Part shown: piece by piece, positions 2,846 through 12,492 of the stretch
How positions within the stretch are numbered: position 1 is the first letter of the stretch
Layout: every line of letters begins with the position of its first letter
Translations under genes and position numbers: made by a program
The notes under the pieces: model-generated
The model's input: only the letters and a program-made list of their open reading frames with translations
What the model was told of the DNA's origin: nothing
Databases searched by the model: none
From: an uncultured bacterium
GTDB lineage: Bacteria > Patescibacteria > Microgenomatia > Levybacterales > UBA12049
Length of the DNA stretch: 12,617 nucleotides
Direction of reading: 5' to 3'
Assembly (NCBI GenBank): GCA_946885425.1
Contig: CAMPGJ010000020.1
Coordinates: forward strand, 1 to 12,617

Positions 2846-2868
2846 GATGCTAAATTAACAGCATCTAA

Positions 2869-3005
2869 GAAATTCGAAATTCAAAGCACGAAATCGAAAT
2901 AATATCAAAATTATAATTTTCTACATTCAAAAACGTTTTGACATTTTGTATTTTTTGTTCATTTGAATTTGTTTCGGATTCCGATATTCGATATTCGGAT
3001 TTATT
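2869..3005. repeat. Degenerate heptad inverted-repeat element
   Basis: This element fills most of the 218-bp gap between the 92-aa gene and the kinase. The left arm reads as 7-bp steps: gaaattc, gaaattc, aaagcac, gaaatcg, aaataat (2869-2903). The right arm has inverted-sense steps: gtttcgg, attccga, tattcga, tattcgg (2971-2998). The reverse complement of the right arm gives cgaata/tcggaat words resembling the left arm, so the whole is an imperfect palindrome. The centre holds two smaller palindromes, aaaattataatttt (2907-2920) and caaaaacgttttg (2928-2940). Upstream, agatgc/gcatct (2845-2850 and 2861-2866) makes a weak 6-bp stem without a T-run. The rest of the gap (3006-3063) shows no convincing promoter; tagaat at 3036 and tattat at 3041 are possible -10 boxes without a matching -35. 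Confidence 0.6.
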
Positions 3006-3063
3006 GATTTCCTGAGCATAATGCAATGACAGGAATAGAATATTATGGTAATCTGAATATAGA

Positions 3064-4515
3064 ATGGATTTGTTGAAATTTTTAGGTATTGGTAAAAAGG
3101 AAGAAAGCAGCCCCTCAGATGATCTGGCCCACATCAACCAGGAAATGTATAAGAAAAGTTTTGAGCTTTCTGAGAGGAATAAAATGCTTTCACTTCTGCG
3201 GAAAATTGATGAGATAATCCTTGATTCTATTACTCACCCTGAAGAAATTGCGCGCCAAGTCACCTCTTTATTGGTGGCAGAGAGCGATTTTCCTATAGCT
3301 AGTATTTTTATGTTCGATAAGAAACATAAAATATTGAAGAGAGTGTCATTTTCCCGCAATAATAGCGATGAAAAGGATAGTTTACAGGAAGAACAGGCAC
3401 TAATTCTTGAAGTCTCATCTGAAAAAGCAACTAATGTTCTGGTGCAGGCAATACAGGAGAGAGTCGTCAAAACATCAAACACACTCGTGAATGTTTTGTT
3501 TTCTGAGGATTGGCGTGATAAAGCCCTGAAAACACAGGAATCATTTAGTATTAGATCAGTTTCTGTATATCCGCTCATAGTCCGTAATGAAATCATCGGA
3601 GTGATGGCAATCTGCCTGAAAGATGAGGAGCAGCATGTATCATCTTATTTGAGAGATCTTTTGGATCGTTTGGCTCAGGTTATTGGTATTGCTATGGATA
3701 ACTCGATTCTCTATAACGAAGTTCAAATGTCGAATGAACGGTTAAAAGAGCTGGATAAATTAAAAGATGAGTTCGTATCAGTTGCCTCACATGAGTTAAG
3801 GACACCAATGAGTGCCATAAAATCATATTTATGGATGGCGTTGGAAGGAAAAGGTGGTCCTTTAACAGAAAAACAGAAGTATTACCTGGAGCGATCATAT
3901 AGTTCTGTTGATCGATTAATTAAATTAGTTAACGATATGCTTAATATTTCACGAATTGAATCTGGGCGTATAACAATAAAAATGCAGGAGGTTGCTCTAC
4001 AAGAATTGGTGGGTGAGGTTATGGAAGAGGTTGGACCACGGTCCGACGAACTTGGTGTATCGGTAAGGCTGGTTCATTCCGAATCTCTACCGCATGTCAT
4101 GGCTGATCCGGATAAAATCAAGGAAGTCTTATTTAACATTATAGGAAATTCACTGAAATTTACGCCTAAGGGCGGAACTATAACGATGTCATTTTCTCAA
4201 AAAGAAGCTATGGTAGAAACCTTGGTGAAAGATACAGGGGCAGGCATCCCACCTGAGGATATGCCCAAGCTGTTCCAGAAATTTGGTCTTCTCCCCGGTT
4301 CATATACCGTAAATAGGACAGCATCGGGTACAGGTCTGGGTCTATATATTTCCCGCTCTATTATCGATCTTCATGGAGGGAAAATTTGGGCGGATTCTCA
4401 AGGCCGCGGTAAAGGATCAGAGTTTGGATTTTCTCTGAAAGTATTTAAAGAATCAGATTTGCCAGTACAGCAAACAGAACAAGAAGATATCGGCATCATC
4501 CACACAAAGATATAA
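3064..4515 (+). CDS. Soluble GAF-domain sensor histidine kinase
   Basis: A 483-aa two-component sensor kinase that autophosphorylates on His and passes the phosphate to a response regulator, none of which is encoded here. There is no signal peptide or membrane helix, so it is cytoplasmic. A helical start (about 20-55) leads into a GAF-like sensory domain (about 40-215, with VSVYPLIVRNEIIGVMAI typical of the last GAF strands) and a short coiled linker, 216-235. The HisKA dimerisation helix has SHELRTP with phospho-acceptor H243. The HATPase domain has N-box N362 (NIIGNSLKFTP), G1 DTGAGIP 390-396, F-box LFQKF 403-407 and G2 GTGLGL 422-427. All catalytic motifs look intact. A polar 20-aa tail follows. 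The ATG at 3064 has no Shine-Dalgarno. The eight-helix protein upstream could supply membrane sensing, and the downstream pilus locus is a possible regulatory target; both are inferences. Confidence 0.93.
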   Translation: MDLLKFLGIGKKEESSPSDDLAHINQEMYKKSFELSERNKMLSLLRKIDEIILDSITHPEEIARQVTSLLVAESDFPIASIFMFDKKHKILKRVSFSRNNSDEKDSLQEEQALILEVSSEKATNVLVQAIQERVVKTSNTLVNVLFSEDWRDKALKTQESFSIRSVSVYPLIVRNEIIGVMAICLKDEEQHVSSYLRDLLDRLAQVIGIAMDNSILYNEVQMSNERLKELDKLKDEFVSVASHELRTPMSAIKSYLWMALEGKGGPLTEKQKYYLERSYSSVDRLIKLVNDMLNISRIESGRITIKMQEVALQELVGEVMEEVGPRSDELGVSVRLVHSESLPHVMADPDKIKEVLFNIIGNSLKFTPKGGTITMSFSQKEAMVETLVKDTGAGIPPEDMPKLFQKFGLLPGSYTVNRTASGTGLGLYISRSIIDLHGGKIWADSQGRGKGSEFGFSLKVFKESDLPVQQTEQEDIGIIHTKI

Positions 4516-4568
4516 CCTTGTTACGGCTTAGTAGCTTTTTTAAGGATAGTTCTGCATAATAGTAGTAC

Positions 4569-5339
4569 ATGGAGCAGTTGGTTTATTTTATTGTTTTTCT
4601 TTTGGGTTGCGCTGTTGGGAGCTTTTTGAATGTTGTCGTTGATAGGAGCAATGAGGGGAAATCTTTTTTAAAGGGCCGTTCTCATTGTGATCACTGTAGA
4701 CATAAACTGCACTGGTTTGATCTCATACCAATTGTATCCTTCCTTTTATTAAGCGGTAAATGCAGATATTGCAAAGCGAAATTGAGTTTCTATTATCCTA
4801 TCGTTGAGATTATAACCGGACTATCATTTGTTTGGATTTCGGTTCTGTACTTCCCTTCCCTACTCACGATTGGCTATTTTTTCTTTATTATCTCCTGCCT
4901 TATCGTCATATTCTTTGCAGATTTGAAATATGGAATTATTCCGTTTTTTAGTGTTATTCCCGCTGTTGCTCTTGCTTTTCTTTGGTATTTGTTTATACCT
5001 GGTAATCTACCTATAAGTAATTATCTCCTTTCTGGATTGGGAGCTTTCCTTTTCTTTTTTCTTCTATTTGCTATAACCAAGGGCAAAGGAATGGGGTTTG
5101 GAGATGTTGTTTATGCTTTTTTGATGGGATTTTTATTGGGTTTCCCAAAAATTGTCTTAGGTTTTTATACAGCTTTTATAGCTGGCGCTCTCATCTCTTT
5201 ATTTCTCGTTTGGCTCCATAAAAAGAAGCTCAAAGGGTCTACAATTCCCTTCGGACCATTTCTTGTAGCGGCTACAGTAATAAGTATGTTTTGGGGAGAC
5301 CAACTAATTGAAAAGGCTCTTGGGTTCTTAGTAAGATAA
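4569..5339 (+). CDS. pilD: Type IV prepilin peptidase / N-methyltransferase PilD
   Basis: Integral membrane aspartyl protease of the inner membrane. It cleaves the leader of type IV prepilins after the conserved Gly and, in the bifunctional family, methylates the new N-terminus. The 256-aa length is typical. Residues 10-20 carry GCAVGSFLN, the family's first-helix motif. The cytoplasmic zinc-binding loop has two C-x-x-C pairs, C40/C43 and C65/C68, with DLIPIVSFLLL between them. The catalytic aspartates are D118 (in FFADLKYGIIP) and D179 (in GMGFGDV), the signature of the peptidase family, so the enzyme looks active. About seven hydrophobic helices follow the usual order. Its substrates are evidently the pilins encoded directly downstream, starting 11 bp after its stop. 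The 53-bp gap before it holds no clear promoter. Confidence 0.96.
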   Translation: MEQLVYFIVFLLGCAVGSFLNVVVDRSNEGKSFLKGRSHCDHCRHKLHWFDLIPIVSFLLLSGKCRYCKAKLSFYYPIVEIITGLSFVWISVLYFPSLLTIGYFFFIISCLIVIFFADLKYGIIPFFSVIPAVALAFLWYLFIPGNLPISNYLLSGLGAFLFFFLLFAITKGKGMGFGDVVYAFLMGFLLGFPKIVLGFYTAFIAGALISLFLVWLHKKKLKGSTIPFGPFLVAATVISMFWGDQLIEKALGFLVR

Positions 5340-5348
5340 GGGAGAGGG
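5340..5348 (+). promoter_or_regulatory. Strong Shine-Dalgarno for first pilin gene
   Basis: The purine run gggagaggg lies directly after the pilD stop and just before the ATG at 5351. It is the best ribosome-binding site in the window, where most genes have none. It supports the 5351 start and suggests high translation of this pilin. Confidence 0.6.
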
Positions 5349-5350
5349 TT

Positions 5351-5899
5351 ATGAATAGAAAATTTCAAATTTCCAATTTCAAATTTCAAATTTCCGCTCT
5401 TAGGGTGGGCTTCACTCTCATTGAACTTATATTAGTTGTGGCTGTTATGGCTATCTTCTCTACCCTCATTTTGTATACCCTCAATCCGTTTGAACAATTG
5501 AAAAAAGGAAGTGATTCGAAAAGAAAATCTGATCTTAGCGAACTCCAACGGGCCTTAGAAACATATTATCATGATTTTGGAGCATATCCATCATCATCAG
5601 GAGATTATAGAATTCTTAATGATGCAATAAAAGTAGAGTGGGGATCTTCATGGGCTCCTTATATGACTAAATTGCCGGCGGACTCTTCTTCAGGAAGAAC
5701 GTATGTGTATTATTCACCTCCTTCATCTGGTGGGCAATCTTATTATATTTATGCTAGTCTGGAAAGAGGGGCAAAAGATAACGATGTTTGTAATGGAGGA
5801 GATGCTTGCTCAAGCTTGGATCAATCAGGTTTCCCCTCATCTAATGCCTGTATTGATGTTTGTAATTATGGAGTGTCGAGTCCCAACGTTTCTCCCTAG
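5351..5899 (+). CDS. Type IV pilin / GspG-like prepilin (first of two)
   Basis: Class III signal peptide: a 20-residue leader ending LRVG, cleavage before F21, then FTLIE with the conserved E25 (+5), and a hydrophobic helix to about residue 45 (LILVVAVMAIFSTLILYTL). The segment after the helix, KRKSDLSELQRALETYYHDFGAYPSS, is the usual start of the GspG/PilE globular domain in major pilins and pseudopilins. The 182-aa protein ends with a variable region holding five cysteines (about 148-171), which could form stabilising disulfides. It would be anchored in the inner membrane, cleaved by PilD and built into the pilus fibre. The leader is unusual: residues 4-15 (KFQISNFKFQIS) are the translation of five 7-bp repeat units. 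The gene is in the pilD operon with a strong Shine-Dalgarno. Which of the two GspG-like pilins is the major one cannot be decided. Confidence 0.93.
   Translation: MNRKFQISNFKFQISALRVGFTLIELILVVAVMAIFSTLILYTLNPFEQLKKGSDSKRKSDLSELQRALETYYHDFGAYPSSSGDYRILNDAIKVEWGSSWAPYMTKLPADSSSGRTYVYYSPPSSGGQSYYIYASLERGAKDNDVCNGGDACSSLDQSGFPSSNACIDVCNYGVSSPNVSP
5360..5394 (+). repeat. Five tandem 7-bp units inside prepilin leader
   Basis: Exactly five consecutive heptamers: aaatttc, aaatttc, caatttc, aaatttc, aaatttc. They start 9 bp into the pilin gene and encode leader residues 4-15, ahead of the PilD cleavage site. Because aaattt is self-complementary, the array can pair with itself. Confidence 0.8.
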
Positions 5900-5906
5900 G
5901 GATAAA

Positions 5907-5934
5907 GGTTAACAGTTAACGGCTATCATTAACT
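5907..5934 (+). repeat. Four heptad units abutting the second pilin start
   Basis: The heptamers are ggttaac, agttaac, ggctatc and attaact, the last ending at the base before the ATG at 5935. agttaa (5914-5919) and ttaact (5929-5934) are inverted partners, giving a small hairpin with its 3' side touching the start codon. It has the layout of the other heptad loci but is short and weaker. Confidence 0.5.
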
Positions 5935-6420
5935 ATGAATTTAATAATTACTTTTCTAAATACGTTAAAAAGACAACGCATTGCCCATGTGAAGCCCCTT
6001 CGTGGCTTTACCCTCATGGAGTTGCTTATTGTTATAGCTATAATAGCGTTGTTGACTACGTTTACTGTTGCCAATTTTTTAACTGGGAGGAACAGAGCTA
6101 GAGATGCGCAGCGAAAATCAGATTTACGCCAGATCCAGGCAGCTTTGGAGCTATATAGAGCAGATCAGGGGTCCTACCCGGCATCGTTTCCTGCATGCGG
6201 GTCATCTTTGACCGGTGGAGGAGTTACCTATATGCAAAAAGTGCCTTGCGATCCTGCAAATTCTGGTCAGCATATATATACATATGTTTATACAGGTACA
6301 GAGTATAAGCTTGTTTCCTGCTTGGAGAATACAAATGATAAACAAAAAGATGCTTCCAATGATACAGTTTATTGTGCAGGGGGAGAAGCTAATTGGTCGT
6401 ATACCCTAACAAATCCTTAA
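5935..6420 (+). CDS. Type IV pilin / GspG-like prepilin (second)
   Basis: A 161-aa prepilin with a 24-residue basic leader ending KPLRG, cleavage before F25, then FTLMELL with E29 at +5 and a hydrophobic helix (LIVIAIIALLTTFTVANFL). The next segment, ARDAQRKSDLRQIQAALELY, followed by ADQGSYP, is the classic GspG/PilE signature. Four cysteines (about 87, 100, 129 and 147) probably form disulfides. PilD would process it, and it is likely a fibre subunit. No Shine-Dalgarno is visible; the start is chosen as the ATG directly after the heptad repeat. Its stop TAA overlaps the next ATG by one base (TAATG), pointing to translational coupling with the FimT-like gene. It resembles the preceding pilin in architecture, suggesting an old duplication or a major/minor pair. 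Confidence 0.93.
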   Translation: MNLIITFLNTLKRQRIAHVKPLRGFTLMELLIVIAIIALLTTFTVANFLTGRNRARDAQRKSDLRQIQAALELYRADQGSYPASFPACGSSLTGGGVTYMQKVPCDPANSGQHIYTYVYTGTEYKLVSCLENTNDKQKDASNDTVYCAGGEANWSYTLTNP

Positions 6421-6967
6421 TGAATAAATCTTCCATTTTCCAGGTTCCATTTTCCATTGATTTACTATTTAATAATGTAAAAATTAAATGGAAAATGCCA
6501 AATGGTAAATTGCAAATCCCTAAGGGGTTTACTCTTGTTGAGTTAATTGTTGTTATTGGGATTATTGCGATTCTTACTTCTTTTGGTATTGCTTCATTTG
6601 CTTCATACAATAATAGGCATACTTTGGAAATGGCTGTTGCAGATGTTAGTACGATGATTACTACTGCCAGATCCCGTTCTCTCTCTCAAGTAAAGCCATC
6701 CCAATGCGCAGCTCAGGTGCTTTCAGGATATCAGGTTGTTATAGATGTTCTATCGGGCGAATATACATTGAGAGTGTTGTGCGGCAATGCATATACACTT
6801 GAAACAAAAAAAATTCCTGAGGATATTACTTTTGGGTCTGATGCAACAACAACAATTTTCTTTCCTGTTCTAACAGGCGATCTATCTGAGTCATCCCGCG
6901 TTCCATTAAGTGGGAGTGGAGTAACAAAGGTGATAGAAGTAGATGTTAATGGGACGGTTATGGTGAA

Positions 6968-6971
<4 letters not shown>
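6420..6971 (+). CDS. fimT: FimT/GspH-like minor pseudopilin
   Basis: Minor pseudopilin of the initiation/tip complex. From the ATG at 6420 the protein is 183 aa with a 36-residue leader, long for this class, ending QIPKG. Cleavage precedes F37, then FTLVE (E41 at +5) and the helix LIVVIGIIAILTSFGIASF. The segment ADVSTMITTARSRSLSQ after the helix is typical of FimT/GspH, as is the beta-rich C-terminal domain ending in VDVNGTVMV. Two cysteines, about 102 and 125, may pair. An alternative ATG at 6495 would give an 11-residue leader (MPNGKLQIPKG) of more usual length; neither has a clear Shine-Dalgarno. The 6420 start overlaps the preceding stop, favouring coupling. The extra leader is encoded by an inverted heptad repeat. 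The 3' end overlaps pilV (ATGA). Confidence 0.88.
6431..6515 (+). repeat. Heptad inverted repeat (hairpin) within fimT leader
   Basis: The left arm is 7-bp steps ttccatt, ttccagg, ttccatt, ttccatt (6431-6458). The right arm is atggaaa, atgccaa, atggtaa, attgcaa (6488-6515). The core cattttccatt (6448-6458) pairs perfectly with aatggaaaatg (6487-6497), and pairing continues imperfectly outward. The loop is about 28 bases and AT-rich. The alternative fimT start ATG at 6495 lies inside the stem. All of it is translated if fimT starts at 6420. Confidence 0.8.
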
Positions 6972-7542
<571 letters not shown>

Positions 7543-8109
7543 ATGAAAAAAAAGTTTATGAATTATTATAAAGATACTTTTAAAAGATATTTCTCAACTC
7601 TCAACTTTCAATTCTCAAAAGGTTTCTCTCTTGTGGAGCTATTGTCTGCTGTAGCGATATTTTCTGTTATCGGGATAATTGTTGTTTCCATTCTTACGCT
7701 TACATTACGGGGTAGCAGAAAAGCAGATTTAACGGAATCTTTACGGCAAAATGGTGATGTTGTCTTATCAAAGGTAGTAAGATCTATCCGATATGCAAAG
7801 AGTATAGATGATCCCCTGTGTATTCCCTCTGCTACTGCATCAGCGATAACTATTACTACGCTTACAGATCAGGAGACGACGCTTAGCTGTGATTCTAATG
7901 GGATTACATTAAATACCTTGCCGCTTATTGATACAAACACCATCCTGGTTCAGGATTGTTCCTTTGTTTGCCGTCAGCCAACATTGACAGACTCACCAAC
8001 TGTAACAGTGCAATTTACACTTTCTTCCAATAATACAAGCAATTTTTTTGAACAGAATGTTACTATTCCTTTTCAGGCTACAGTAATGATGAGGAACTTG
8101 AATAGATAA
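7543..8109 (+). CDS. pilW: PilW/GspJ-like minor pseudopilin
   Basis: A 188-aa pseudopilin with a 27-residue leader ending QFSKG, cleavage before F28, then FSLVE (E32 at +5) and a helix (LLSAVAIFSVIGIIVVSILTLTL). The segment ADLTESLRQNGDVVLSKVVRSIRYA, where the C-terminal domain begins, is typical of PilW/GspJ proteins. Four cysteines (about 88, 110, 134 and 138) may form two disulfides. Leader residues 17-26 (FSTLNFQFSK) are encoded by inverted copies of the upstream heptad array. The GGAG four bases before the ATG supports this start. It sits between PilV and the VWA protein, the order of the classical pilV-pilW-pilX-pilY1 minor pilin operons, which supports a role in pilus priming and in displaying the tip protein. 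Confidence 0.9.
   Translation: MKKKFMNYYKDTFKRYFSTLNFQFSKGFSLVELLSAVAIFSVIGIIVVSILTLTLRGSRKADLTESLRQNGDVVLSKVVRSIRYAKSIDDPLCIPSATASAITITTLTDQETTLSCDSNGITLNTLPLIDTNTILVQDCSFVCRQPTLTDSPTVTVQFTLSSNNTSNFFEQNVTIPFQATVMMRNLNR
7592..7619 (+). repeat. Four inverted heptad units inside pilW leader
   Basis: The units are tctcaac, tctcaac, tttcaat and tctcaaa. The first two are perfectly complementary to any adjacent gagagtt pair of the 7473-7528 array (14 bp, with many possible registers). They end just before the codons for the cleavage-site Gly. Confidence 0.9.
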
Positions 8110-8124
8110 GAATATATAGTAGGA

Positions 8125-8166
8125 TTTGCTCAAGTGTAACATCGTGAACTGAGCAAAATATGTTAC
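8125..8166 (+). promoter_or_regulatory. Two interlocked inverted repeats before the VWA gene
   Basis: The 66-bp gap before the VWA gene contains tttgctca (8125-8132) with tgagcaaa (8150-8157), and gtaacat (8136-8142) with atgttac (8160-8166). The order is A1-B1-A2-B2, so the stems are either mutually exclusive or form an H-type pseudoknot. The second ends 9 bases before the ATG at 8176. No T-run follows, so a simple terminator is unlikely. Possible roles are an RNA switch or a protein-binding operator. Confidence 0.5.
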
Positions 8167-8175
8167 TATTTATCT

Positions 8176-10470
8176 ATGAAAATGCTTTTAAATAAGAAAC
8201 ATTTCTTTTTTGTTGCAGTTGCATTCCTATTTTTCTCTTCATTAACTGTAATAATTTTTTCAAACCAAGTACATGATATTGAGGTCAGTAATGAGAGTTC
8301 TGAGAAAGCTAAACTAAATTCTTCTCTTAATAAAAATAAAAGTGTTCTTGCCGCTGCTGATATCATTATAGACAATAATTCAGCAAATGTTGTCGGCACG
8401 TGGGATACACGGACATCTACATATGATAAATATGGGAGTAGCTATCGCTCTAAGAGCGATGGTAATGGTTCTGCTTATTTGCAATATACGCCAAATATAA
8501 CAACACCAGGAGAATATAATGTGTATGAATGGCATCCGGAGGGAAGCAATCGTCCTACTGATGCGCAGCATATTATTAATTATAACGGTGGTTCACGGAC
8601 GATTAATGTTAACCAGCAAAATAATGGTGGGCAATGGAATCTACTCGGCAAGTTCACTTTCGCCAGTGGTAACATGGGATACGTTAGAATAAATGATAGT
8701 TTTTCCGCAAGTTCCGGTGGATATAATGATGGTGGTTCCGGAGGTTATAACGATAGAGGTTCGGGAGGATATAATGATGGTGGTTCCGGAGGATATAATA
8801 ATGAAGATACAAATACTACTGTAGCATCTGATGCAATTAGGTTTGTGTATGCTGGTTCATCAACTCCTCAACCGACACCAATACCCGTAGGAACAGATGC
8901 TTGTGTTGACGCTAAAGTGTTTGATTTTATCATCGTTTTTGATCATACAGGTTCTATGGGTCAGGATGGTAATACAGGAGAGACCAAAATAGCTGTAGCT
9001 AAAAGAGCTGCAAAGGATTTTGTAGATATAATTGCCGCAAAGATCCCCACAGCACGTATTGGAGTAGTCAAATGGGCAGGTAATCAAAATTTCCCAAATA
9101 ATTCAGAAACATCAGTAGCTGTTAATTTAACAAACAATTTTAATTCAGTAAAGACAGGTATAGATAATATACGTGATCTTCGTGGACAGGGAGATATAGC
9201 TTCATCATGTTTTGAATGCGGTGTTAAACTCGCTAATGATCACTCAAAAGCTAATACGAGAGCCAATTCTCAAAAAATACAAATATTTATGACTGATGGG
9301 AACGTGAATCAAACGATTAATGGCTCTCAGCAGGGTGCTACAGAAAATGACCCTGCAGCAGAGGATGCCGCGATGAGGCAAGCTCAGGATGGGGTTACGA
9401 AACAAGGTATTATTTATTATACGGTTGGTATGTTAGGAGGGCAGCATGCCAGTGAAGGTTTCTTAAGAGATCTTGCTTCTTTAAACGGGGGTACTTATTA
9501 TAGGGGAAATGAAAGTGAAATGGAGCGTATTTTTGGGGAGCTTGCTACTACATTTATTCCATCGGGTACGATTAATGGCTATGTTTTTGAGGATAAGGAT
9601 TCAGATGCTGTTCTTGATAGTAATGAACCTAAGATTCCCAATTGGACAGTTCAACTCTCTGGAGGGAAACAAATTCAAACAAATAGTTCTGGGAATTTTT
9701 CATATACAGCGCTTTGTTCCGGCAATTATACAGTATCTCAAATCGTTCAACCAGGTTGGGCTCCTACCACAAATACCTCCCGGTCGGTTTCTGTTGTAAA
9801 TGGTACTACATATAATAATATAATCTTTGGTAATGAGCGGGAATATACAATCTCGGGGAATGTTTACATTGACATTAACGGAAATGGAGTTAAAGATGCC
9901 GGTGAGGTCAATTCTACTACCCCTATTATTATTTCAACTGATAAAGGTGATGTGACTGTAACGAATGGCACATACTCCGTGAGTAAACTTTTAGATGGTC
10001 CGGTGAGTGTGTCCTATACTTCTCTCCCCGCAAATTATGCTGTGACGTACCCAACTGGTGCTTCTTCCTCATTTGCAGTAAATGTTGGTTCTTCTTGTAC
10101 AGCGAACGGAGCGAGGAGTGCTGCTTGTACGAATGGAAATATAATCAACCTGAATTTTGGAATTAAACAACAATTATTTACCATTTCAGGGAGTATTTAC
10201 ATGGACGCAAACAAAAATGGAATAAAAGATGCTACTGAATCAAACTATTCTGGAACACCCTCTCTTACAGCAAGCCGAGGAACAGTCAACGCAAACTCAA
10301 ATGGAACCTACACCATCAGTAATTTATTACCTGGAACTGTTACTGTTTCATTAAATACAGTACCTCAGGGATATTCGATGACTTATCCGCTTAATGGACC
10401 ACCTCCTTCCTTTCAAGTAAGTGTCGGTCCCGGCTGTTCAGTAAATGTAGCCGGAGGGGAATGTAAATAA
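8176..10470 (+). CDS. Secreted VWA/SdrD-B surface protein in the PilY1 position (putative pilus tip adhesin)
   Basis: A 764-aa exported protein. A basic start and hydrophobic stretch (8-30) form a signal peptide or anchor. Residues about 62-226 resemble the golvesin C-terminal/xanthan-lyase carbohydrate-binding-like domain (IIIDN start, VYEWHPEGSNR, VNQQNNGGQWNLLG, ending SDAIRFVYAG). It is interrupted at 181-208 by a Gly-Tyr-Asn-Asp repeat. A PQPTPIP linker leads to a VWA domain, about 247-460, with MIDAS elements DHTGS 256-260 and FMTDG 371-375, so metal binding looks retained. Three SdrD-B/Cna-B-like beta domains follow (about 465-553, 559-663, 670-764), the last two with D-x-N-x-NG-x-K-D calcium-type loops. 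There is no LPXTG motif or C-terminal membrane helix. Lying between PilW and PilX, it occupies the place of PilY1, also a VWA-containing tip protein, although no PilY1 beta-propeller is present. The tip-adhesin role is inference from context. Confidence 0.85.
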   Translation: MKMLLNKKHFFFVAVAFLFFSSLTVIIFSNQVHDIEVSNESSEKAKLNSSLNKNKSVLAAADIIIDNNSANVVGTWDTRTSTYDKYGSSYRSKSDGNGSAYLQYTPNITTPGEYNVYEWHPEGSNRPTDAQHIINYNGGSRTINVNQQNNGGQWNLLGKFTFASGNMGYVRINDSFSASSGGYNDGGSGGYNDRGSGGYNDGGSGGYNNEDTNTTVASDAIRFVYAGSSTPQPTPIPVGTDACVDAKVFDFIIVFDHTGSMGQDGNTGETKIAVAKRAAKDFVDIIAAKIPTARIGVVKWAGNQNFPNNSETSVAVNLTNNFNSVKTGIDNIRDLRGQGDIASSCFECGVKLANDHSKANTRANSQKIQIFMTDGNVNQTINGSQQGATENDPAAEDAAMRQAQDGVTKQGIIYYTVGMLGGQHASEGFLRDLASLNGGTYYRGNESEMERIFGELATTFIPSGTINGYVFEDKDSDAVLDSNEPKIPNWTVQLSGGKQIQTNSSGNFSYTALCSGNYTVSQIVQPGWAPTTNTSRSVSVVNGTTYNNIIFGNEREYTISGNVYIDINGNGVKDAGEVNSTTPIIISTDKGDVTVTNGTYSVSKLLDGPVSVSYTSLPANYAVTYPTGASSSFAVNVGSSCTANGARSAACTNGNIINLNFGIKQQLFTISGSIYMDANKNGIKDATESNYSGTPSLTASRGTVNANSNGTYTISNLLPGTVTVSLNTVPQGYSMTYPLNGPPPSFQVSVGPGCSVNVAGGECK
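8716..8811 (+). repeat. Four 24-bp in-frame repeats encoding GGYNDGGS units
   Basis: Units of eight codons (8716, 8740, 8764, 8788) encode GGYNDGGS, GGYNDRGS, GGYNDGGS and a diverged GGYNNEDT. Nucleotide identity between units is high, so the duplications are recent. The block sits inside the golvesin-like domain just before its last strand (SDAIRF), apparently an expanded surface loop. Confidence 0.9.
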
Positions 10471-10485
10471 CTTTAAAATTTTTAT

Positions 10486-10515
10486 TTGACACATTACCCT
10501 CTTGGTTGGTACGAT
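10486..10515 (+). promoter_or_regulatory. Sigma70-type promoter candidate for pilX-pilM-pilN
   Basis: A perfect TTGACA (10486-10491) is followed after 18 bp by TACGAT (10510-10515), which keeps the T1, A2, A5 and T6 of TATAAT. It lies in the 73-bp gap after the VWA gene. Transcription would begin about 20 bases before the pilX start. Confidence 0.55.
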
Positions 10516-10533
10516 AAAGTGGAGTATATTGTA

Positions 10534-10539
10534 GAGAGG
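10534..10539 (+). promoter_or_regulatory. Shine-Dalgarno of pilX-like gene
   Basis: gagagg lies four bases before the ATG at 10544. It is one of only three clear Shine-Dalgarno sites in the window and fixes this start. Confidence 0.55.
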
Positions 10540-10543
10540 TATT

Positions 10544-11371
10544 ATGAAGCTATATTATCGTAGAGATTATCAACGGGGTCAAGCTCTGCTTATTGTTATT
10601 CTGGTTATGGTAACTGTGCTGACAGTAGGATTATCTCTTGCCACACGCACCATTACCAATGTCAGAGTTACTCAGGAGGAGGAAAATTCTGAGCGGGCTT
10701 TTTCTGCTGCAGAGGCTGGAATTGAACGATCAGTGGCGACCAATATTGAAGCATCCGGGAATTTCCCGAATGGTACATCATATCAAACTTCAGTTGTTAA
10801 AGTTGCTGGTGTGGAGTTCCTCATGAATAATGGTGCTTCTGTGCTTAAAGATAGCGCAGTAGATGTTTGGCTTACAGATTATCCAGCCTATTCCACATCA
10901 TGGAATGGTAATGTCACTATTTATTGGGGAAATTCGTCTGATGTCTGTTCAGCAGATGAGTTTGATAATACAGCTGCTGCATTAGAAATTGATGTCATAT
11001 CCGGTACGAAAGCAAATCCAGTAAATACTAAGTATGCAGTAGACCCCTGTTCATCACGTGCTTCTGTTAATAAATTTGAATATGTCCCTTCAAATGGTGG
11101 AGTCATAGGTGAAAAGACATTTGCTCGTAAGAAAACAATACCTGTCTCTTCCGGACTTGTTATCAGGGTTACCCCCCTTTATGCTTCTACTGCGTTGGGA
11201 GTAAATGGTTGTGATGCCATAAATTCTAATTGCCTTTCTCTACCAAGTCAGGGTTCACTCGTTGAGTCAGTTGGTAAATCAGATACTACTACTCGTAAAG
11301 TTGTTAGCTTTGTAGGTTATCCTCAGTTACCAACAGAGATGTTTCCACTTGTTTTATATTCACCAAAATAA
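10544..11371 (+). CDS. pilX: PilX/GspK-like minor pseudopilin
   Basis: A 275-aa protein with a short 12-residue leader ending YQRG and predicted cleavage before Q13. A helix follows (ALLIVILVMVTVLTVGLSL) without the +5 glutamate, as in PilX_N and GspK proteins, which cap the fibre rather than pack within it. After the helix comes EEENSERAFSAAEAGIERS, the strongly conserved PilX N-terminal-domain motif (A-F-x-A-A-E-A-x-x). The rest is a beta-rich domain with several cysteines (about 131, 168, 220 and 227) and low conservation. With FimT, PilV, PilW and the VWA protein upstream it completes a minor pilin set. It has its own promoter candidate and Shine-Dalgarno, so it may also be expressed with pilM and pilN. 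PilM starts 9 bp after its stop. Confidence 0.87.
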   Translation: MKLYYRRDYQRGQALLIVILVMVTVLTVGLSLATRTITNVRVTQEEENSERAFSAAEAGIERSVATNIEASGNFPNGTSYQTSVVKVAGVEFLMNNGASVLKDSAVDVWLTDYPAYSTSWNGNVTIYWGNSSDVCSADEFDNTAAALEIDVISGTKANPVNTKYAVDPCSSRASVNKFEYVPSNGGVIGEKTFARKKTIPVSSGLVIRVTPLYASTALGVNGCDAINSNCLSLPSQGSLVESVGKSDTTTRKVVSFVGYPQLPTEMFPLVLYSPK

Positions 11372-11380
11372 TAAAAATAT

Positions 11381-12418
11381 ATGAAATCAACTGCCTTTGG
11401 TTTAGATATTGGTACAACAACAATGAAAGTTGTTTCGGTTGAACGCGACAAAAACGCTATCACTTATAATTCTTCATTTTCCGTCTTTACTCCTCAACAA
11501 GGCATGCAATCAGAATCACCTTTTGACCATCAAGAGATGGCAATCATTATTAATAAGCTTGTTATTGATGCAAAAATTACCACAAATAATGTTAATATTG
11601 CTCTCCCTGAGAACCACGCTTATAGTAAAGTAATCGAAATGCCCTCATTGTCGGATGATGAATTGTCGAATGCAATTTATTGGGAGGCTGAACAGTATGT
11701 TCCTGCTCCACTTGATACGGTAACCTTAGCCTGGAGCAAACTGCGTACTTTTAGAAATGTTCTGGGAGAAGAAAAAATGCAGGTTTTTTTAGTCGCGGCT
11801 CCTAAGGATGTCATTAGCCGATATCAGACAATTTTAGATTTGGCAGGTTTAACCATTGTTTCAATAGAGACAGAAACACTGGCAATGGTACGTGGTGTCA
11901 TAGCAGATTCTACAGCTCCAACTGCTCTTTTGATGAATATCGGTTCCATGAACACATCACTATGTATTTTACAAAATGGTATTATCGTTTTTAACTATTC
12001 TTTCCCGCTCGGCGGTATCGCTTTGACCCGCGCAATTGCATCTGATTTTGGTTTTACTCCTCAACAAGCTGAAGAGTATAAAGCTGCATATGGATTGTCA
12101 GACAAAAATTTTGGAGGCAAAGTGAGGAAAGCAATAGATCCTATTTTAACATCGATGATGACTGAAGTAAGGAAAGCAATAACTTTTTATAATGAAAAAT
12201 ATAAAGGAGAGTCTCAAATTTTTCAAATTCTTTTAACAGGAGGAGGTGCCAACCTTCCCGGTCTGGCAGTTTATTTCGCTCAAAATATTGGAATAGAAAC
12301 GCTTATTGCCAATCCTTGGGAAATGCTCCAGGTCCAGAAGGTTCCTGCTGATGTACTGGCAAGAGGACCTCTTTTCACCATCGCGCTAGGCTTGGCTCTG
12401 AAGGAATTCGAGTCCTAA
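11381..12418 (+). CDS. pilM: Type IV pilus assembly actin-like ATPase PilM
   Basis: Cytoplasmic actin/FtsA-like protein that binds ATP and the cytoplasmic N-terminus of PilN, linking the inner-membrane alignment complex to the assembly motor. The 345-aa length is typical. The phosphate-1 motif is GLDIGTTTMKVV (7-18), the phosphate-2 region LMNIGSMNTSL (184-194), and the adenosine motif LTGGGANLPGL (285-295). The 1C-type segment EMPSLSDDELSNAIYWEAEQ (86-105), followed by YVP, is highly characteristic of PilM. All nucleotide-binding motifs look intact. The ATG at 11381 has no Shine-Dalgarno and follows pilX by 9 bp, suggesting coupled or leaderless-like initiation. PilN begins 74 bp downstream, after a repeat hairpin. 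Confidence 0.96.
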   Translation: MKSTAFGLDIGTTTMKVVSVERDKNAITYNSSFSVFTPQQGMQSESPFDHQEMAIIINKLVIDAKITTNNVNIALPENHAYSKVIEMPSLSDDELSNAIYWEAEQYVPAPLDTVTLAWSKLRTFRNVLGEEKMQVFLVAAPKDVISRYQTILDLAGLTIVSIETETLAMVRGVIADSTAPTALLMNIGSMNTSLCILQNGIIVFNYSFPLGGIALTRAIASDFGFTPQQAEEYKAAYGLSDKNFGGKVRKAIDPILTSMMTEVRKAITFYNEKYKGESQIFQILLTGGGANLPGLAVYFAQNIGIETLIANPWEMLQVQKVPADVLARGPLFTIALGLALKEFES

Positions 12419-12481
12419 ATGGTTAATGGTCATATGGCTAAATGGTTAAGAACCATATAACCATCGAACCATAATAGCCAT
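12419..12481 (+). repeat. Heptad/octad inverted repeat between pilM and pilN
   Basis: Starting at the base after the pilM stop, atgg recurs at 12419, 12426, 12434 and 12442, and inverted ccat at 12453, 12461, 12469 and 12478 (steps of 7-9 bp). The inner atggtt (12442-12447) and aaccat (12451-12456) make a tight hairpin with a 3-base loop, and the outer units pair imperfectly. There is no T-run. It ends 11 bp before the pilN ATG. Confidence 0.75.
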
Positions 12482-12492
12482 TTATCAAGTTT

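Follow-up and report, generated by a model that had tools for sequence, protein, structure and literature searches.

The window analysed here, a stretch of 12,617 nucleotides (contig CAMPGJ010000020.1), has six loci described as built from repeated units of seven bases (heptads), and those with paired heptads probably belong, as short copies without a gene, to a family of small mobile elements of bacteria. In the full form, a heptad array, one gene of the S23/IVP family (PF05635) and an array of the inverse-complement heptads follow one another, mostly at gene junctions. The S23 gene and its copy-specific inverted heptads form one mobile unit: S23 genes are associated with heptads, the two arms match within a copy, the repeated word is specific to the copy, a near-identical element is present at two unrelated sites and gene-less copies occur elsewhere. 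The window itself is, judged from its genes, a type IV pilus gene cluster, a Levyibacteriota-like operon. The wider tests were made on the genomes and loci of relatives.

S23 genes between copy-specific inverted heptads

Genes matching PF05635 are present in 15 of 20 Levyibacteriota genomes, and 14 control genomes lack them; these genes were examined because four-helix-bundle genes of such bacteria seemed to lie among repeats. The flanks of these genes often consist of heptads upstream and of their inverse complement downstream, and the words vary from locus to locus. The arms, compared within 200 nucleotides of the domain match for most S23 loci and taken to match at a score of at least 14, match in 89 of the 124 S23 loci, as against one of 182 control open reading frames (ORFs) of 90–180 residues from pilus loci. 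By set, this concerns 40 of 55 loci of Levyibacteriota (the best 55 of 69 matches), 19 of 30 Acidobacteria-type loci (30 of 79 matches; the 20 genomes of this set include one labelled as a cyanobacterium and one labelled as Acidimicrobiia), 22 of 29 loci of other Patescibacteria and 8 of 10 plasmid loci. When flanks are swapped between loci, the same score is reached in 1.75%, 0.8%, 1.1% and 8.9% of cases, respectively. The plasmid loci come from 24 records with S23, of which 10 are in the counts; five more Nostoc copies were used for the units and junctions, together with two more from Planktothrix. The plasmid copies with matching arms belong to cyanobacteria and, in one case, to a strain of Bacteroidota. 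A period-7 score of at least 8 is found in 81 of the 124 loci, period 8 is second (27 loci) and other periods are fewer; period 7 leads in all four sets. One locus (L095) was in the wrong orientation in the arm analysis, which leaves the arm counts unaffected and touches only a few of the 204 mismatch cells discussed below.

For two elements from two genomes (L134 and L136), whose S23 proteins are 94% identical, the alignment runs from outer arm end to outer arm end and the flanks are unlike. A second pair (L148 and L150, S23 proteins 77% identical) has the gene and the arms in common and little beyond. The neighbouring coding sequence is overlapped by the left arm, or is at most 20 bases away from it, in 12 of the 15 annotated plasmid copies, and the same holds for the right arm in 12. 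The junction between a helicase and a methylase gene is occupied by the element in Dolichospermum; by eye, the gap is short and heptad-free in Nostoc HK-01 and in Planktothrix, holds a hairpin without heptads in Calothrix, and is longer, with a short heptad-like TTTTGACTTTTGAGTTTT stretch, in Chroococcidiopsis. The sequences at these empty sites diverge too far for an alignment. It is very improbable that the arrays came first, such that independent heptad arrays are the target and are split into two arms by the inserting S23 gene. S23-less arrays are indeed common, but a split array would give direct and not inverted repeats, the empty junctions are heptad-free in two of these cyanobacteria and hold only the hairpin or the short stretch in the other two, and the sequence common to L134 and L136 stops at the outer arm ends.

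The arms change with the element. Both arms are common (score at least 14) to 9 of 27 S23 pairs with more than 60% protein identity versus 5 of the 1458 pairs below this value, indicating that the word is carried along with the element but changes rapidly. In the Nostocales plasmid copies, the left and right arms have four and four units (L276, L278, L279 and L228) or three and three (L277), so that L277 has one unit fewer in each arm than L278 and L279, which have like neighbours, and a change between AATTCGC and AATTCGT is present in both arms.

The start of one gene, putatively of the PrgI family, is a hot spot at which S23 elements of two S23 lineages are found in six loci (L083, L087, L089, L131, L133 and L137). 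The words at these loci differ within a lineage (L083 versus L087 and L089), and the arms match within each copy, with scores of 13–22. On plasmids, S23 genes are also seen within defence operons in which no gene is broken (L220, L221, L223, L226 and L228), namely between drmD and an MmeI-like gene, between cas2 and cas1 (two cases), and between a helicase gene and a gene for an N-6 methylase or a hypothetical protein.

Gene-less copies and the heptad loci of the window

The preliminary description of the window, which was made from the letters only, had reported a period of seven at all six loci, usually as a forward block followed by inverted units. The period is real: at a strict threshold, two period-7 arrays are found (5360–5394 and 7472–7541), against a mean of 0.02 and a maximum of one in 50 dinucleotide shuffles, and a scan of periods 3–24 gives scores only at 7, 14 and 21, plus one stretch each at 23 and 24. 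At low score, Tandem Repeats Finder (TRF) lists period 7 at 2982–2997, 6431–6458, 6486–6517, 7592–7618 and 12418–12449, and period 8 at 12449–12473. Each locus was also folded and compared with 200 shuffles. The fold is significant for 7473–7619 (z −8.45, 0/200 shuffles as good), 12415–12485 (z −5.45, 0/200) and 6425–6520 (z −2.41, 1/200) and not significant for 2866–3006 (43/200), 5355–5400 (24/200) and 5900–5940 (40/200). The forward-plus-inverted architecture thus stands for three loci (6431–6517, 7472–7618 and 12419–12481), whereas 5360–5394 is tandem only, no inverted partner of it being found, 5907–5934 is unsupported as a member, and 2869–3005 does not have a significant fold of its own. 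Inverted ends that can pair into a stem are therefore seen in three of the six window loci by fold, and in the 89 of 124 S23 loci by arm score. The words are unrelated between the window loci, as had been stated, and the shared architecture stands, as a hairpin pairing, for these three.

The locus at 2869–3005 appears, from the homology of its arms, to be a gene-less relative of an S23 element. The stretch 2866–3006 aligns with the arms of the S23 element L148, when the gene is omitted, at z 17.8, and with S23-less copies at z 16.2 (L283), 13.5 (L286) and 3.8 (L285). A 20-base core of this stretch occurs at five places, in 4 of 379 genomes of Patescibacteria, and no S23 gene is detected by profile in the 2.4–3 kb fetched around these. 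The earlier view that the loci are not the dispersal of one element is correct as far as the words differ, but this locus does belong to a dispersed sequence family; the contrary outcome named there, that all loci follow one dispersed consensus, has come true by half, through this single locus. The relationship resembles that of a miniature inverted-repeat transposable element (MITE), which is likewise short and gene-less with inverted ends (seen by fold in three window loci) and whose sequence, as at 2869–3005, has homology with the ends of an element that carries a gene. It differs in that a MITE family has one end sequence, whereas here the ends are copy-specific and no transposase is known. 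For 2869–3005, a MITE-like descent from a gene-carrying element would agree with the L148 match; for the other window loci, a parent of matching words was not found. The loci 6431–6517, 7472–7618 and 12419–12481 would be the same kind of element, and no S23 element with their words was found among the loci compared.

Heptad arrays accompany S23 across genomes. In 20 S23-positive Patescibacteria, 29 arrays are found in 274,667 bases (9 of the 20 genomes have any), versus one in 338,187 bases of 20 S23-negative genomes, and this lone array is an AT-rich simple stretch; the comparison covers the first contig of each genome, up to 20 kb, the negative genomes being those listed by name (39 more are unlisted) and the positive ones being taken in listing order, with some weak matches skipped. 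Levyibacteriota with S23 have 37 arrays in 500 kb versus two in 300 kb without it. One word family is present in 26 of 86 S23-positive versus 2 of 59 S23-negative genomes (Fisher p 2.7e-5, hand count from tables); the reversed-pattern control of this family matches in seven genomes, all of them S23-positive. Twelve heptad arrays of several words, some as long mixed blocks, are seen within 20 kb of one S23-positive Patescibacterium (L321).

The checks proposed with the preliminary description, a period-7 excess over randomised sequence and the comparison of orthologous gaps, bear it out in the relatives: the excess is present, and the gaps are empty or hold another word. The 41 related loci (624,563 bases) contain 53 period-7 arrays versus none in one order-2 Markov resample, and 0–7 arrays of other periods, except for periods 14 (42 arrays) and 21 (12 arrays). 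A candidate orthologue of the pilin 7543–8109 is present in 37 relatives, ten of which (L001, L003, L010, L016, L020, L021, L022, L023, L034 and L040) have a heptad array before the GFTLIEL-type motif, with words such as AATTAAA, GAATTAT, AAATTCA and AAATATC in place of the CTCAACT of the window. In L001 there is a forward array upstream too, and in L003 GTTGA-type units precede the inverted arm. In 42 loci, 29 of 55 arrays lie at most 100 nucleotides upstream of a prepilin motif, versus 3.1% of random placements. Arrays are also found in frame and stop-free within protein genes, namely, for three species, in a single loop of TrmD (words TTTGCAC, TTAATTT and GGCGTGT), in RecG (three confirmed by Pfam) and in leader peptidase (three confirmed). 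At the pilM/pilN junction, the heptad hairpin occurs only in the window, and 27 of 28 relatives have no insert there (by eye). The pilM/pilN gap of L001 has, just after its position 9641, a non-heptad inverted repeat with arms of about 12 bases.

It is possible, though unlikely, that slippage of the polymerase alone produces the period of seven, that occasional template switching produces the inverted arms and that the adjacency of S23 is due to chance. Heptamers are the commonest class of 5–11-nucleotide repeats in most genomes surveyed for long simple sequence repeats (Mrazek 2007, as related in PMC4679880), neighbouring units have substitutions in common, as duplication would give (by eye), single arrays outnumber pairs, and the pilus loci of S23-negative Levyibacteriota hold arrays. 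Slippage does not account, however, for inverted arms at 89 of 124 S23 loci versus one of 182 control ORFs, for the 29 arrays versus one in S23-positive and S23-negative stretches, or for an element that moves with its arms, as L134 and L136 do. Since S23/IVP genes are bounded by the same kind of copy-specific inverted heptads, more is accounted for by a family of mobile elements than by slippage on its own.

Several observations weigh against assigning the paired loci to this family. No match to the profile of 22 S23 proteins is found in the six-frame translation of the window, and three of its six loci fold no better than chance (200 shuffles each). Among the S23 loci, 35 of 124 are below the arm score, including the Chloroflexota copy (12.5), and three Planktothrix strains have heptad indels in both flanks, but different ones. 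Arrays mostly stand alone: of the 37 in the 500 kb of S23-bearing Levyibacteriota, only 3 have an inverted partner at a distance of up to 400 bp. In the pilus loci of five S23-negative Levyibacteriota genomes there are 6 arrays in 95,088 bases, versus 29 in 272,468 bases of fifteen positive ones. In Acidobacteria-type loci, the figures are one array in 81,180 versus 14 in 267,253 bases, and a rank correlation with S23 number is absent (p 0.61), so that a dosage effect of S23 on array density was rejected for these loci. In all comparisons with and without S23, kinship is not matched and the genomes are largely metagenome-assembled genomes (MAGs). The link between S23 and arrays across genomes is not absolute.

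Possible rewriting of the arms and known systems

The arms raise the question of how the two inverted arrays can remain matched although the word changes. It is possible that the palindromic arms are exposed at replication and that one arm is then copied from the other at the DNA level, steps of seven nucleotides changing both arms together and so keeping them alike. The S23 protein might hold the palindromic structure and let the element move, and it might serve the gene-less copies in trans. Insertions would survive where the harm is small, as at stop/start junctions, in pilin leaders and in the loops of TrmD, RecG and leader peptidase. The solved relatives reached in the Protein Data Bank (PDB) with the profile of 22 S23 proteins, 2gsc and 2rld, have five chains each, and the Xanthomonas protein is described as a toroidal homopentamer in the account of PMC4990558.

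The complementarity of the arms could instead be kept by selection for folding of the transcript, as an RNase III site or for operon processing, with the heptads as a by-product. The hairpins at operon junctions would agree with this, and RNase III cuts out the intervening sequences (IVSs) of rRNA in the account of PMC4990558. At mismatched arm positions, however, the sense strand has 109 G-U versus 95 A-C combinations (p 0.36), which is no excess of RNA-compatible mismatches, and private words and the period of seven are left unexplained; selection for RNA pairing is therefore quite improbable and was rejected. The absence of a G-U excess leaves no mark of RNA-pairing selection and would favour copying at the DNA level.

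Known systems share some of these properties. The closest is the 23S IVS of Coxiella, in which, according to the description in PMC4990558, terminal inverted repeats enclose S23p together with tandem heptamers immediately before it; the number of these heptamers is not the same in all strains. On that description it is an independent case of heptamers with S23 in another phylum, and it is the only case in print of heptamers beside S23 found in the open-access literature searched. IVP ORFs are also noted in rRNA insertions of candidate phyla radiation bacteria in PMC11270868. The likeness to rRNA IVSs lies in the S23 gene between terminal inverted repeats and, for Coxiella, in the heptamers beside it; the present elements differ in location, as they lie at junctions between genes in many phyla and not in rRNA, and also in having a copy-specific word and gene-less copies that are common. 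Among the matches listed in the open-access literature searched, none connects copy-specific inverted heptads at sites other than rRNA with S23 genes.

Direct TAACTGA repeats of Beggiatoaceae, cyanobacteria and Bacteroidetes are described as mostly intergenic and near start codons, with 7-nucleotide indels between strains (MacGregor 2015, PMC4679880). They resemble the present arrays in being tandem heptamers with this location and these indels between related strains, but have one main word in direct orientation, and S23 is not named, the text of PMC4679880 mentioning neither S23 nor four-helix. TAACTGA as the word was rejected, TAACTGATAACTGA being absent from the 326 loci examined.

Rickettsia palindromic elements are palindromic inserts, in frame in protein genes, and are in this respect alike; they have one consensus per family and are not known to have a period of seven.

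Small intergenic palindromes with a partner protein are also known as repetitive extragenic palindromic (REP) sequences with their REP-associated tyrosine transposases (RAYTs). It is extremely unlikely that the present loci are such palindromes, made and moved by Y1 transposases. PF01797 genes are present in 13 of 20 Levyibacteriota genomes, and 6 of 12 loci tested (out of 15 fetched) have inverted flank matching above 95% of swapped flanks. A period-7 score of at least 8 is found, however, beside only one of these 12 RAYT genes, and 3 of 15 S23-positive genomes are without a PF01797 match. This origin was rejected, since Y1 transposase genes are common but 11 of 12 flanks are heptad-free. The inverted matching in the flanks of 6 of the 12 Y1 transposase genes tested (loci L096–L110) is without heptads, as REP-type palindromes would be. 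No PF01797 match is present among the 14 window ORFs scanned.

Avd, the four-helix-bundle accessory protein of diversity-generating retroelements, and S23 are related proteins, and the likeness to these retroelements consists in this type of protein. They differ in that a reverse transcriptase (PF00078) is present in only 6 of the 15 S23-positive Levyibacteriota genomes. An origin driven by reverse transcriptase was rejected: 7 of 20 Levyibacteriota genomes have the enzyme and 9 of the 15 S23-positive ones lack it, so that, gaps in MAGs aside, it is, like the Y1 transposase, not a general partner. A link to Avd by sequence was likewise rejected, since 2rld and 2gsc were the only PDB entries reached with the S23 profile. 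In one genome (G014), two weak PF05635 matches adjoin a reverse transcriptase. No heptads are seen by eye at the flanks of one Avd-like gene, and PF00078 is not found among the 14 window ORFs scanned, in which template repeats were not sought.

Two loose ends may be one, the scattered heptanucleotide repeats and the S23/IVP protein of rRNA IVSs, a protein without established function. It is conceivable, if somewhat doubtful, that S23/IVP elements constitute a separate class of mobile DNA, without a transposase and with heptad-array ends whose word is private to the copy or a close lineage, both ends being rewritten together. S23 would then hold the palindrome while the host polymerase copies arm onto arm in steps of seven, and would act in trans for copies without a gene as well; many unexplained bacterial heptad repeats would be footprints of these elements, and rRNA IVSs their best-known landing site. 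The elements are filed here with the S23/IVS kind, and the joint rewriting of both ends may warrant a separate class. If the link holds, heptad arrays would be a readable record of S23 activity.

Features of the window and its pilus gene cluster

The heptad features of the window (Table 1) are located in and between genes of the pilus operon and not in an rRNA gene.

Table 1. Positions of the heptad features, counted from the first base of the window
Feature	Position	Strand	Remarks
S23-less dispersed element, degenerate	2866..3006	.	In the gap before a histidine kinase ORF; assigned by homology, not by its own fold
Parts of 2869–3005	left arm ~2869–2906; right arm ~2957–3001		Spacer of ~50 bases, without S23 gene
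Tandem AAATTTC array, five units	5360..5394	+	In frame, leader of pilin ORF 5351–5899
GTTAAC-type stretch between pilin ORFs	5907..5934	.	At most two units; membership unsupported; absent from the TRF list
Forward arm, TTCCATT units	6431..6458	.	In frame, leader of pilin ORF 6420–6971; pairs with 6486–6517
Inverted arm, AAATGGC/AAATGGA units	6486..6517	.	Same leader (pilin ORF 6420–6971)
Forward arm, about nine GAGAGTT units	7472..7541	.	First bases contain the stop codon of the ORF ending at 7474
Inverted arm, CTCAACT units	7592..7618	.	Leader of pilin ORF 7543–8109, whose start codon lies between the arms
Heptad/octad hairpin	12419..12481	.	Between the pilM stop codon (12416–12418) and the next start codon (12493)

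The genes of the window code for a leader peptidase, several pilin-like ORFs, a von Willebrand/SdrD-like surface protein, a PilX-like protein and PilM. The nearest relatives of its PilM, with 45–72% identity, are from MAGs of Levyibacteriota and other Patescibacteria-type bacteria (loci L001–L041). A 24-bp tandem repeat of about four units is located at 8711–8803, within the Golvesin/SdrD/VWA-like ORF 8176–10470.

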